Source: Bacteroidota bacterium (lineage in GTDB: Bacteria; Bacteroidota; Bacteroidia; Chitinophagales; Saprospiraceae). Taken from it: a stretch of DNA of 32,561 bases. Location: assembly GCA_029561355.1 (NCBI GenBank), contig JAKQJD010000135.1:1-32561 (forward strand), given 5' to 3'. Of this stretch, positions 7,115 to 22,447 are shown in pieces. The notes beneath the pieces were generated by a model, which was given only the letters and a program-made list of their open reading frames with translations, did not search any database and was not told where the DNA came from. Both the position numbers and the translations under genes were made by a program. Every line of letters starts with the position of its first letter. The first letter of the stretch is position 1.

Positions 7115-9040
7115 ATGGGATTTCAAAAAGTAAACACGTTAGACAACAAAAATGAAATGCAGCATTTCGTGCGCAGTCTGCTCGACGACGTGCAGGCATT
7201 CGAGTACATGCTGGAACACGACTGGTTCGAAAGTGACATTATCCGCATCGGGGCCGAGCAGGAAATGTGTCTGGTACACAACAAAACTTTTAAGCCGGCA
7301 ACCATCAACATGGAGGTACTGGAACACCTCAAAGGGCACGACTGGTGTGTGACCGAACTGGCTAAATTCAACCTGGAAACGAATCTGAGCCCGCGCGAAT
7401 TCACCGGCGACTGCCTGAGCCAACTGGAAGCCGAAAACCTCAAGTACCTGGCCATTATCCAGAAGGTACTCGACGGTTTCGATGCCAGTATTATCCTCTG
7501 CGGCATTCTGCCTACCCTGCGCAAGCACGACCTGGAAATGCACAACCTCACGCCGAAGGACCGGTATTTTGCGCTCATGGCGGCTATCCAGAAACACCTC
7601 CTGGGCACTTCTTTCGAATTGCGCGTGGAAGGTGTCGACGAATTGCTGGTGAAGCACGACTCGCCGCTGCTGGAAGCCTGCAACACGAGTTTCCAGGTGC
7701 ACCTACAGGTGACGCCCAACGACTTCGTGAAAATGTACAACATCTCGCAGGTGCTGGCAGCGCCCATCATCGCGATTTCCGCCAACTCGCCGCTCGTTTT
7801 CGGGCGCCGGCTCTGGCATGAAACGCGCATCGCACTGTTCCAGCAGAGCCTCGACACGCGCACCACGGCCGATCACATGCGTGAACGGCTGCCGAGGGTC
7901 AATTTCGGGTCGGGCTGGCTTCGCGGCGACATCACGCAGATTTACAAGGAAGATATCAGCCGCTTCCGCGTATTGCTGGCAGGCGCTATCGAGGAAGATT
8001 CGCTGGATATGGTGCGCCAGGGCATCACGCCCAAACTGCGCGCCCTGCAAATCCACAATTCCACGGTGTACCGCTGGAATCGCCCCTGCTACGGCATTTC
8101 TCCGAACGGAAAGCCGCACCTCCGCATCGAGAACCGTGTGATGCCTTCCGGGCCTACTACCGTCGACGAAGTGGCCAATGCCGCTTTCTGGCTCGGCTGT
8201 ATGGTCGCCATGGGGGATAAATACGACGACATTACCAAACACATCGACTTCGTCGATACGCGCGACAACTTCCTGAAATCGGCCAAATTTGGCATCGATA
8301 CTACTTTCTCGTGGTTGAAGGACAAAAAAGTGCCGGTTACAGACCTGATCCTTCAGGAACTGTTGCCTATGGCGCGCGAAGGTCTTAAAATGAGAAAAGT
8401 AAAAACAGCGGACATCACCAAATATCTGGATATCATCGAAGCACGTGCCCGGGAACACAAAACCGGCGCACGCTGGGCACTGCGCACCTTTACCGCGCTG
8501 AAAAAGGAAGTGACCAACGATGAAGCCGTCACCGCCATCACTGCCGCTATTGTGAAAAATCAAAAGCAAAACAAACCGGTACACACCTGGGAGGAAGGCA
8601 CCGCCGCCGACCTCGAAAACTGGCAACCAACTAAGATCAAGGTGGAAGAGTTCATGTCGACCGACCTGTTTACGGTGCAGAAAGACGACCTGATCGAACT
8701 GGTAGCCGAGATCCTCGACTGGCGCCGCATCCGCTATATGCCCGTGGAAGACCGCAAAGGAGAACTGACCGGCCTTATTTCCAGCCGCATGCTCCTGCGC
8801 CATTTTTCACGCCGCAACCAACTGGACGACAATGTTCCCGTTCAGGTAAAGGATATCATGATCGTAAAACCGGTCACGGTTACGCCTGATACCAACATCA
8901 TGGAAGCCATGAATAAAATGCGTACGCACAACATCGGCTGTTTGCCTGTTGTGAAAGACAAGGAACTTGTCGGTATCATTACGGAAATGGATTTTCTGCG
9001 GATCACCAGCCGCCTGATGGAAAGGCTTGAAAAACAGTAA
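7115..9040 (+). CDS. GCS2-family carboxylate-amine ligase with C-terminal CBS pair
   Basis: A 641-residue cytoplasmic protein. Residues about 15-440 form a glutamate-cysteine-ligase type 2 (COG2170, glutamine-synthetase-like) domain, with IGAEQEMCLV (45-54) and ELAKFNLETN (81-90) supplying the acidic metal/ATP residues. Family members join an amine to a carboxylate with ATP. Two CBS domains follow (about 510-570 and 578-635; EEFMSTDLFTV and VKDIMIVKPVTVTPD mark their starts). They commonly bind adenine nucleotides and suggest energy-state control. Two features argue against routine glutathione synthesis: no gshB-like gene is present, and the CBS pair is not part of the classic enzyme. The substrate is unknown. 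The neighbouring GNAT starts 2 bp after the stop, so the two are almost certainly one transcript. The ATG at 7115 follows a promoter-like sequence. Confidence 0.9.
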   Translation: MGFQKVNTLDNKNEMQHFVRSLLDDVQAFEYMLEHDWFESDIIRIGAEQEMCLVHNKTFKPATINMEVLEHLKGHDWCVTELAKFNLETNLSPREFTGDCLSQLEAENLKYLAIIQKVLDGFDASIILCGILPTLRKHDLEMHNLTPKDRYFALMAAIQKHLLGTSFELRVEGVDELLVKHDSPLLEACNTSFQVHLQVTPNDFVKMYNISQVLAAPIIAISANSPLVFGRRLWHETRIALFQQSLDTRTTADHMRERLPRVNFGSGWLRGDITQIYKEDISRFRVLLAGAIEEDSLDMVRQGITPKLRALQIHNSTVYRWNRPCYGISPNGKPHLRIENRVMPSGPTTVDEVANAAFWLGCMVAMGDKYDDITKHIDFVDTRDNFLKSAKFGIDTTFSWLKDKKVPVTDLILQELLPMAREGLKMRKVKTADITKYLDIIEARAREHKTGARWALRTFTALKKEVTNDEAVTAITAAIVKNQKQNKPVHTWEEGTAADLENWQPTKIKVEEFMSTDLFTVQKDDLIELVAEILDWRRIRYMPVEDRKGELTGLISSRMLLRHFSRRNQLDDNVPVQVKDIMIVKPVTVTPDTNIMEAMNKMRTHNIGCLPVVKDKELVGIITEMDFLRITSRLMERLEKQ

Positions 9041-19954: not shown

Positions 19955-20062
19955 TGCCGCAGGCGGGGAAACGAATGAAAGATTTGCAAAATGTATCGTC
20001 GCAACGAGTTGCTGTTTTTACAGTACTTTTCGCCGCAAAACAATCCATTCGAATTCCCCGCC

Positions 20063-22222
20063 ATGAAATACATGATCCTTGCATGTTCCCTGCTGCTGTT
20101 TGTCGCCCAGATGGCCTGCAAGCGGACACCTTTCTCCCGGCCGGTCAAATACGTTGCATATGTAGGGTTTAATTTTCTGGACGCGGAAAAAAACAGCGCC
20201 AATAACTACCTCGATTCGCTGTATATCGTTTCTCTGGAAACCTACCTGCAACGCATCAACGCGCACGAAGACCCGAGCCCGTACCCGGTGGAATACCAGT
20301 TAAAAACCTATCAGTGCGATTTTAATGCCGACACGATCCCGGCCATTTATAAAAGTATCATAGCAGATACGAGTATTGCCCTGGTAATCGATAACACCTG
20401 GGGACGGTATATTCGAAATGCAGCGCCGCTGATCCGCAATCAGGTTCCGGTGATGTCGATGAGCGCCGACCAGAACAGGCTCGATTTTGGAAAAAACGCT
20501 ATTTTTTTGCAGCCCAACGACCCGCAGCCCAATTATTTCGTACAGTTTATTAACAAGGTGCTGAAAAAGAAATCGGTCGGTTTTGTTACCGAATGTGATT
20601 ACCTGCTGCACAATCTTTTTATAGAAAGCCTGAAAAACAACGCGTTTCAGTTCGACTCGGTTTGCCTCTGGCAGCGCAGTTATATTCAAAACCGGGAAGT
20701 GCCGAAAGACTCCGTGATCGTCATGGAGCGCTCGCTGCGCAAAATGCTGGAAAAGCCCCAGCCCGAAATTATTCTGCTGAATACGCACACGGGATATGGC
20801 GATTCCATTATGCGTTTCCTTGAGCGCAGCAAACTCCCGCCCAAAACCTTCGTCGGCATTTCCACCGACCTGAACGACCAGGAACTGGAAAAAATCTCCC
20901 GCGAAAAAGGACATACGTTTATACGATATGCCGCTGCCGACGAAGCGCTGCCGGAAGAAGTATACCGCGATAAAAAAGAGATTGAAAAACGATTCCCTAA
21001 CCCCTTCCGCAACCGCGACCCGAAAAAGGTGCGGCAGGCCGAAAATAACCTGCGGCGTTGCTACGACGCCATGAATATTTTTGAAATCGCCCTGCAGGAA
21101 AAATGCACCGGCCGCGCCTCGCTGCTGACCTATTTTAAAAGACTGGAAAACCGGAAAATTTCCAGCAACGACAACCTGTACGAATTCGACAGCCTGCTGA
21201 TTCAGCGAAAAGACCCGAGTTTCGACCAGGTGCACGGCGGCAAAACGCGCAGTTGCGCCACCCAGATCAATACTTACGGCGAACCCATCGCCAACCTGCG
21301 CGTGGGACTCGACGTGATCGACATCAACGATATCGACGTGCGCAAGAACACTTTCGACTGCAACCTGCTGTACTGGGTGATCGCCGATTCGCAGTACATC
21401 AACAAGGAAGGCTACATCGATTTCAGCAACATCAGTTCGGAAGAAGCCAACCGATACCTCATTGCCGAGGAGCGGGACAGCAATTATGTGGTGCGGATTT
21501 ACCGGATCAGCGGAAAATTCCTCGGCAATTTCAAGTCGTTCAAGTTCCCGTTCGACCGCCACGAACTGAAAATCCCGATTGCCGCGCTGAGTTCGAGCAA
21601 CAAGATCCGGATCAGTTTCGACCACAGCCGCCTCCAGATTAACGACAAAATCAAGGATTTTCAGTTCAATGACTGGGATACGGACGAGTATTTCGTGACG
21701 CTCGACAACCAGTTGTCCAATGCGCTCGGCTCGCTCGACAAGGTCACCTACGACCCGACCGACAAAGCCCGTTACCTGGAAAATTACAAAAGCCTCAACG
21801 TGCACCTCGGCGTCAGCCGGCAGCCCTGGGGCGCTATTATTTTGATCATCATGCCATTCCTGATGTTCAGCGCGCTGCCGGTTTTTATGCTGTTTTTCCA
21901 CAAAGCCAGTTTCGAAGAAGTGGGCGAACTTATCATCACTTCCTTCCTCGCCACGGTAGCCTACTCGATCAACCTCGTGCAGATCTCTCCGGCCACCGAT
22001 TCCATGAACCTGGCCTATATTTTCCTGATGATGACGCTGGGGATCAACTTCTTCTGTTTCATTTACGTGACCATCATCGACCGGCAGAAAAAACCTGTCG
22101 TGGCGCCGGAAGAAGCAGCCGAAATATCCGAACCCAGGCGCAAGTTCAGCATGTTGAAAGTGTGGATGCCGGTGCTGTTGCTGCTGGTATTTTTGATGTT
22201 GTTGTACTGGATGTTCGGATAG
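20063..22222 (+). CDS. PBP-I domain fused to a pentameric ligand-gated ion channel
   Basis: A 719-residue receptor. The start at 20063 gives a signal peptide (MKYMILACSLLLFVAQMAC); an earlier ATG at 19991 would add 24 residues. Residues about 26-361 form a type I periplasmic-binding-protein domain (PVMSMSADQNRL, KSVGFVTECDY, and the closing helix CYDAMNIFEIALQE). Residues about 408-584 are a Cys-loop-type extracellular domain without cysteines: LRVGLDVIDINDIDVRKNTF, then FKFPFDRHELKI as the Pro-loop, then DWDTDEYFV. Four helices follow: M1 about 589-612, M2 about 616-639 (EEVGELIITSFLATVAYSIN), M3 about 648-672, M4 about 695-718. From memory, M2 aligns with GLIC without gaps. It carries Glu at -2', -1' and 2', Thr at 6' and Leu at 9', which suggests cation selectivity. 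It probably assembles as a pentamer in the inner membrane with the sensor modules in the periplasm. It ends 60 bp before the first hairpin of E7. Confidence 0.9.
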   Translation: MKYMILACSLLLFVAQMACKRTPFSRPVKYVAYVGFNFLDAEKNSANNYLDSLYIVSLETYLQRINAHEDPSPYPVEYQLKTYQCDFNADTIPAIYKSIIADTSIALVIDNTWGRYIRNAAPLIRNQVPVMSMSADQNRLDFGKNAIFLQPNDPQPNYFVQFINKVLKKKSVGFVTECDYLLHNLFIESLKNNAFQFDSVCLWQRSYIQNREVPKDSVIVMERSLRKMLEKPQPEIILLNTHTGYGDSIMRFLERSKLPPKTFVGISTDLNDQELEKISREKGHTFIRYAAADEALPEEVYRDKKEIEKRFPNPFRNRDPKKVRQAENNLRRCYDAMNIFEIALQEKCTGRASLLTYFKRLENRKISSNDNLYEFDSLLIQRKDPSFDQVHGGKTRSCATQINTYGEPIANLRVGLDVIDINDIDVRKNTFDCNLLYWVIADSQYINKEGYIDFSNISSEEANRYLIAEERDSNYVVRIYRISGKFLGNFKSFKFPFDRHELKIPIAALSSSNKIRISFDHSRLQINDKIKDFQFNDWDTDEYFVTLDNQLSNALGSLDKVTYDPTDKARYLENYKSLNVHLGVSRQPWGAIILIIMPFLMFSALPVFMLFFHKASFEEVGELIITSFLATVAYSINLVQISPATDSMNLAYIFLMMTLGINFFCFIYVTIIDRQKKPVVAPEEAAEISEPRRKFSMLKVWMPVLLLLVFLMLLYWMFG

Positions 22223-22282: not shown

Positions 22283-22416
22283 GCTACGTTTACTAAATTT
22301 TAAAGTTTAGTAAACGTAGCGAAAGCACAAAACCTGACGGCGCGATAAATATGCTCCCGTCTATTGTCGGTCGGACGCCTATTACGTTTACTAAACTTTA
22401 GAAGTTTAGTAAACGT
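22283..22416. repeat. Element E7: two copies of a GTTTACTAAA hairpin
   Basis: Copy 1 (22283-22320) and copy 2 (22384-22416) are each near-perfect palindromes built from ACGTTTACTAAA and its complement. Both are followed by the GAAAGCACAAAA motif. They lie between convergent genes, the ion channel and the beta-helix protein, and may stop transcription from both sides, although neither has a clear T run. Confidence 0.88.
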
Positions 22417-22447
22417 AGCCAAAGCGAAAGCACAAAATCCGTCGGAC

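Follow-up and report, generated by a model that had tools for sequence, protein, structure and literature searches.

A predicted periplasmic-binding-protein clamshell fused to a pentameric ligand-gated ion channel module in one genus of Saprospiraceae

Can one bacterial polypeptide carry both a solute-binding domain and an ion channel, and might the first govern the opening of the second? The question is raised by a gene in a 32,561-nucleotide stretch of DNA from a Saprospiraceae bacterium (contig JAKQJD010000135.1 of assembly GCA_029561355.1; the whole stretch is called the window below), for which the original prediction, made from the sequence alone, was a single chain with a type I periplasmic-binding-protein (PBP-I) clamshell in its N-terminal part and a pentameric ligand-gated ion channel (pLGIC) of the Pro-loop type in its C-terminal part. 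The gene is indeed one intact 719-residue frame that joins a predicted PBP-I clamshell to a pLGIC module. An upstream ATG at 19991 in the same frame would give 743 residues; in the orthologs the signal starts at or near the equivalent of the ATG at 20063, rather than at that of the ATG at 19991.

One rival explanation is that two unrelated genes have been run together here, through a mistake in assembly or by some recent accident, but the same full-length frame is carried by other genomes. Among contigs of species-representative genomes we found 18 loci, of which 14 are full-length and the other four are partial and run off contig ends, and the orthologs are 48-88% identical to the window protein. 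The titles of these loci are Saprospiraceae, Bacteroidetes/Bacteroidota or Chitinophagales metagenome-assembled genomes, except for L025, a 3.7-kb contig with a Thermoanaerobaculia title that is probably a case of mis-binning. A profile of the N-terminal domain (N-domain) matched 24 of the 42 genomes of the window's GTDB genus; in 21 the matching frame is 714-778 residues long, and three yield fragments only. Both halves of the protein are, in addition, under purifying selection: the ratio of nonsynonymous to synonymous differences per site (pN/pS) against L011 and L013, two of the closest relatives, is 0.137 and 0.127 for the N-domain, 0.079 and 0.087 for the channel half and 0.033 and 0.016 for M1-M3, respectively. 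The ratio rises with distance, and against L021 it is 0.444, 0.295 and 0.072 for the same three regions, with synonymous sites near saturation. Because independent full-length copies exist, the joining of two genes by error or accident is refuted, and we consider it exceedingly improbable; the frameshift or assembly error that had been named as a danger to the prediction is excluded.

Does the C-terminal half belong to the pLGICs? Pfam's pLGIC models do not match the window protein at E values up to 1, and its direct match to GLIC is weak (E = 0.0082 with the window protein and 0.012 with the family profile). We compared a profile of the channel module by hhalign with two sets of stand-alone pLGICs of the same order, six in set A5 (L006, L007, L031-L033 and L035) and four in set A6 (L008-L010 and L036), which gave probabilities of 94.4 and 94.1, scores of 59.6 and 58.1 and E values of 8.7e-8 and 1.3e-7, respectively. 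Control scores against the same two sets were at most 25.0 and 22.7 for 40 column shuffles, 18.8 and 17.6 for the reversed profile and 16.4 and 13.1 for the N-domain profile. The full-length family alignment A7, over whose 17 sequences all invariance counts given here were made, produced lower probabilities of 78 and 92. The stand-alone sets in turn match channels of this superfamily: for A5 the E values are about 1e-16 with GLIC and 1.5e-19 with a chimera of GLIC, and for A6 they are 2.7e-16 with ELIC and 2.7e-20 with a receptor chimera. The seven most conserved positions across 561 pLGICs, as given in Table 1 of PMC4795631 (the [F/Y]PxD Pro loop, the beta-9 Trp, the pre-M1 Arg, the M1 Pro and the M2-M3 Pro), are all invariant in the family (F495, P496, D498, W538, R586, P598 and P643; 17 of 17). 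The salt-bridge pair at the interface of outer domain and pore, made up of the Pro-loop Asp and the pre-M1 Arg, is likewise kept in all 17, and the spacing from that Arg to the M1 Pro is 12, as in GLIC. Given the profile match to the stand-alone pLGICs, their own matches to GLIC and ELIC and the seven invariant positions, we regard membership of the channel module in the Pro-loop receptors as settled at the level of sequence. Of the stand-alone proteins run against the Pfam model Neur_chan_LBD, all five from A5 score above its cut-off and both from A6 fall below it.

The details that had been predicted for this half are present as well. The extracellular domain contains the Pro loop FKFPFDRHELKI, and the four membrane helices correspond to four hydrophobic stretches in the translation that are helical in a low-confidence model (Table 1). 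The alignment of M2 with GLIC is free of gaps between the SFE/SYE start and the Pro that follows the helix, and 9' is Leu, just as had been claimed. Numbering M2 from GLIC Glu222, which we take to be -2', the residues Glu -1', Gly 1', Glu 2', Thr 6', Leu 9', Ala 13', Ile 16' and Gln 20' are invariant in all 17 sequences, so that residues of the gate are conserved; position -2' itself is Glu in 15, Asp in one and Gly in one. Glu at -1' goes with cation channels. The 2' position is Thr in GLIC but invariantly Glu in the Saprospiraceae family, and Glu there is, to our knowledge, unusual among pLGICs. These residues support the cation-channel-like pore of the original prediction, and the invariant Glu at -1' and 2' would make the channel cation-selective.

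What is the N-domain? Residues 22-400 modelled alone from 17 sequences with AlphaFold2 (AF2) gave a mean predicted local distance difference test score (pLDDT) of 82.8 and a predicted template modelling score (pTM) of 0.80, and the predicted fold is clearly that of a two-lobed PBP-I clamshell. VIA-align superimposed 341 residues of this model at 3.5 A (Z = 24.8) on the clamshell of the metabotropic glutamate receptor mGluR3 (3sm9). The top rows, which comprise clamshells of metabotropic glutamate receptors, AMPA-receptor amino-terminal domains (ATDs), taste receptors and natriuretic-peptide receptors, are tied in Z, rows within 1 Z being counted as tied, and hence no clamshell subfamily was assigned. 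The Foldseek leaders are leucine-type solute-binding proteins (E = 1.2e-11 to 4q6b). Sequence evidence for the domain is weaker: Peripla_BP_6, whose curated Pfam cut-off is 31.7 bits, matches the window protein at E = 0.31 (11.1 bits) and three ortholog N-domains at E values of 2.3e-6, 1.5e-5 and 1.5e-4 (bit scores of 22.0, 25.3 and 28.0 were obtained for the three), and four fused proteins in the genus scan at 2.2e-5 to 1.5e-4, all below that cut-off; when PDB sequences were searched with the family profile, a single irrelevant chain came up. The predicted PBP-I domain is thus borne out by fold and faintly by sequence. Two further cysteines, C85 and C333, are invariant in the clamshells of all 17 sequences and could form a disulfide.

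Does the clamshell have a working pocket? Loops at the strand ends on the presumed cleft side show higher conservation than the far-side ones: 13 of 57 positions are invariant in the former and 3 of 42 in the latter (Fisher p = 0.052; Mann-Whitney test on conservation, p = 0.0013). Both sets of loops were hand-picked from the predicted secondary structure of the model, and one helix-helix loop (model residues 26-28) was removed from the cleft list before the count. The invariant cleft-side positions include N111, T112, W113, D136, D153, D179, Y180 and H242. Such conservation is consistent with what would be expected of a pocket in use. The amino-acid-like ligand of the original prediction, on the other hand, went unsupported, as no comparison with LivJ or LivK placed the amino-acid-binding residues: hhalign of the N-domain with E. 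coli LivJ/LivK and with PBP-I paralogs of the genus gave probabilities under 1% and no reliable alignment. In an ungapped register set by eye, Gly114 and Gln137 take the places of the Ser and Thr by which LivJ holds amino acids, and this would speak mildly against an amino-acid ligand. The comparison with the paralogs likewise gives no reason to regard the N-domain as recently copied from a resident PBP-I paralog.

The predicted signal peptide is present and ends in Cys19, which is invariant in 17 of 17 sequences. This Cys follows a hydrophobic stretch and is preceded by Ala in 11, Ser in two, Thr in two and Arg in two of them, that is by Ala or Ser in 13 of 17, and it is probably lipidated. 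The gap from Cys19 to the clamshell is about eight residues in the window protein and more in some orthologs, and the linker from the clamshell to strand 1 of the outer domain is about 10 residues. These spacers are short, and therefore a lipid anchor in the inner membrane would press the clamshell against the side of the outer domain. The probable lipobox fits, too, with a different role for the clamshell, that of an assembly, anchoring or protein-partner domain: it would no longer bind a small molecule and would tether the channel either to a lipid anchor or to a protein of the envelope. The presence of AMPA-receptor ATDs, which are regarded as assembly domains, among the best fold matches, and the failure of the profile to match amino-acid-binding PBPs, point the same way. 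The conservation of the cleft loops argues against such a role, which we judge quite improbable.

How might such a protein work? The explanation we favour, and hold with modest confidence to be the probable one, is that the binding of a ligand in the periplasmic clamshell controls the gating of a cation channel. The protein would form a cation-selective homopentamer of the Pro-loop superfamily in the cytoplasmic membrane, each subunit would bear a periplasmic PBP-I clamshell, and ligand-dependent closure of the clamshells would change the opening of the channel, so that a small molecule in the periplasm would be turned into an ion flux or a membrane-potential signal. We infer the pentamer, the cation selectivity, the lipidation, the binding of a ligand and the coupling of clamshell to gate. 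In favour of this explanation are the confidently predicted clamshell fold, the seven invariant pLGIC positions, the profile match to the stand-alone pLGICs and the conservation of the cleft loops; moreover, 21 of the 24 genomes of the genus that carry the N-domain have it within a full-length frame. Several observations weigh on the other side. Clamshells can be pure assembly domains, as the AMPA-receptor ATDs are held to be; the channel part, including the outer domain for which a beta-sandwich would be expected, is poorly modelled, with block means of pLDDT of 21-63 beyond residue 360 in the full-chain model; the Thr and the Arg found before Cys19, in two of 17 sequences each, are less usual before a lipoprotein Cys; the cleft loops were chosen by hand, with the Fisher value given above; and no ligand is suggested by any conserved neighbour at the 18 loci, several of which have little or no flank.

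In a further alternative, what gates the channel would be protons, divalent ions or a ligand bound at the classical interface between the outer domains of its subunits, and the clamshell would only modulate it, as the N-domain of DeCLIC does. In the PDB the name given to GLIC is that of a proton-gated channel, and the channel half is the better conserved of the two (106 of 262 positions invariant over residues 411-672 versus 52 of 374 over residues 27-400). The greater conservation of cleft-side than of far-side loops counts against this alternative, suggesting as it does that the clamshell binds something, and we think gating of this kind possible but rather unlikely.

How widely is the fusion distributed? 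We searched for the same architecture in samples of genomes from the order, the family and the phylum, and found it in one genus of Saprospiraceae. Contig C324, which is the window, belongs to a 6.8-Mb draft genome where the protein matches itself and nothing else. Among 298 genomes of the order a protein search matched eight, five of them with full-length proteins, all of the window's genus (100, 85, 63, 58 and 58% identity), and three (G111, G212 and G237) through stand-alone channel-like proteins only. Two carriers of the fused channel, G272 and G286, also have a stand-alone pLGIC of a different type (L009 and L010). Two of 248 genomes in the family sample match, both of the window's genus (one of 112 genera), and in the phylum sample of 395 genomes the family profile found a full match in the window's own genome only; a 41-residue match at E = 6.6e-4 that contains a stop was dismissed. 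Neur_chan_LBD matches seven of the 298 order genomes and two of the 395 phylum genomes; except for a single match, in a 58-residue frame with two stops, the frames have 319-372 residues and thus no fusion, and since this model misses the window protein these counts are no census of fusions. No relative of the window protein was found in viral contigs (17 pattern matches, none confirmed), and no fused relative in plasmids (one Streptomyces match, E = 0.6). A stand-alone pLGIC query matched 11 plasmid records, of which three were inspected: the 1041-nt gene of Azospirillum sp. B510 and the 1137-nt gene of Streptomyces are stand-alone by annotation, and in the 527-residue frame of A. brasilense the pLGIC part seems to start at an internal Met, with no clamshell discernible by eye. 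The Azospirillum sp. B510 gene (L039) lies directly upstream of an alanine racemase gene and is flanked on both sides by annotated substrate-binding proteins, a context that may hint at a D-amino-acid or cell-wall-linked ligand for that channel.

Table 1. Positions in the window of the fused gene and of the parts of its product, with the evidence for each
Feature	Coordinates	Strand	Evidence or remark
Whole coding sequence, PBP-I/pLGIC fusion	20063..22222	+	719 aa, stop-free translation
Signal peptide, residues 1-19, ending in invariant Cys19; probable lipoprotein (signal peptidase II) signal	20063..20119	+	Cys in 17/17 alignment rows
Predicted type I periplasmic-binding-protein (Venus-flytrap) domain, residues 27-400	20141..21262	+	AF2 model, VIA-align, Foldseek
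pLGIC outer (extracellular) domain, residues 411-587	21293..21823	+	hhalign to stand-alone pLGICs starts at residue 411
Pro loop FPFD, residues 495-498	21545..21556	+	F495, P496, D498 invariant 17/17; [F/Y]PxD signature
M1 helix, residues 588-611, Pro598 at M1 kink position	21824..21895	+	Low-confidence model and 17-sequence alignment
M2 pore helix, residues 617-641 (E -1', G 1', E 2', T 6', L 9', A 13', I 16')	21911..21985	+	Gap-free GLIC alignment; positions invariant 17/17
M3 helix, residues 645-675	21995..22087	+	Low-confidence model
M4 helix, residues 697-718	22151..22216	+	Low-confidence model

Apart from the gene itself and the frames that overlap it, no frame of the window matches at the 18 loci, subject to the same limit of flank, and thus no conserved neighbourhood was found. 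A co-directional gene follows in L019, L020 and L021; Pfam gives it a GWxTD domain in L021, in L020 the score falls just short of the cut-off, and in L019 the assignment is by homology. A homologue of major facilitator superfamily transporters precedes in L019, L020 and L028 (Pfam was run on L020 only). We do not count the long antisense frame at 20300-21901 as a gene: its phase, over residues 80-613, has three to eight stops in five of six orthologs, with none in L021 and one in the window itself. Just downstream of the fused gene, at 22283-22320 and 22383-22417, lie two hairpins that resemble each other, of the form TACGTTTACTAAA...TTTAGTAAACGTA, whose arms are 95% and 100% complementary. 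The pattern occurs at seven places on six contigs of the same genome and its reversed control at none, which suggests a dispersed palindromic element or a terminator. Elsewhere in the window, at 7115-9040, a 641-residue protein has glutamate-cysteine-ligase family and CBS domains.

How does the protein compare with known systems? It shares the Pro loop, the pre-M1 Arg, the M1 Pro and the M2-M3 Pro with GLIC and ELIC, and the gap-free M2 with GLIC; GLIC and ELIC have no N-terminal sensor domain. Like glutamate receptors, it is predicted to combine a PBP-I fold with a membrane part (Z = 24.8 to the GluA3 ATD as well as to mGluR3), but that membrane part is a different one and the whole receptors are not homologous; the parallel with glutamate receptors that had been drawn holds as a structural one, through the clamshell fold matches. 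DeCLIC (PMC9897478, PMC12664993) is, as these papers describe it, likewise a bacterial pLGIC with a large extra periplasmic N-terminal domain, and according to PMC9897478 (2022) it was the sole pLGIC with an additional N-domain of known structure. That domain consists of two jelly-roll lobes (NTD1 and NTD2), which the N-domain described here does not resemble, being predicted to be a PBP-I clamshell instead. The PBP-I/pLGIC architecture as such is not new: by the account in PMC549065, Tasneem and colleagues predicted in 2004 fusions of an N-terminal type I PBP with a ligand-binding and four-helix channel module in one chain in Magnetospirillum magnetotacticum and Bradyrhizobium japonicum. Those are Alphaproteobacteria and the present family is from Bacteroidota; the alphaproteobacterial members are known here by description only, and it is by description, not by sequence, that we set them apart from the Saprospiraceae family, a separate and strongly diverged variant. 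Among the matches listed in the open-licence literature, that prediction is alone in mentioning a pLGIC fused to a PBP, and nothing there deals with the Saprospiraceae family or with a studied fusion of this kind. The 2016 inventory (PMC4795631) states that terminal domains were cut off before alignment and suggests their study.

A bolder proposal, which we offer as speculative and rather doubtful, is that these proteins are separately evolved, lipid-tethered, clamshell-gated cation channels, found so far in a single genus of Saprospiraceae, that have Glu lining the pore at -1' as well as at 2' and a clamshell either pressed against the outer domain's side or, if the lipid is in the outer membrane, spanning part of the periplasm; they would then be an analogue of glutamate receptors built on a pLGIC pore. 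The family shows that there are pLGIC genes invisible to Pfam's pLGIC models, and because it supplies orthologs over such a range of identity, it makes clamshell gating of a pentameric channel directly testable.
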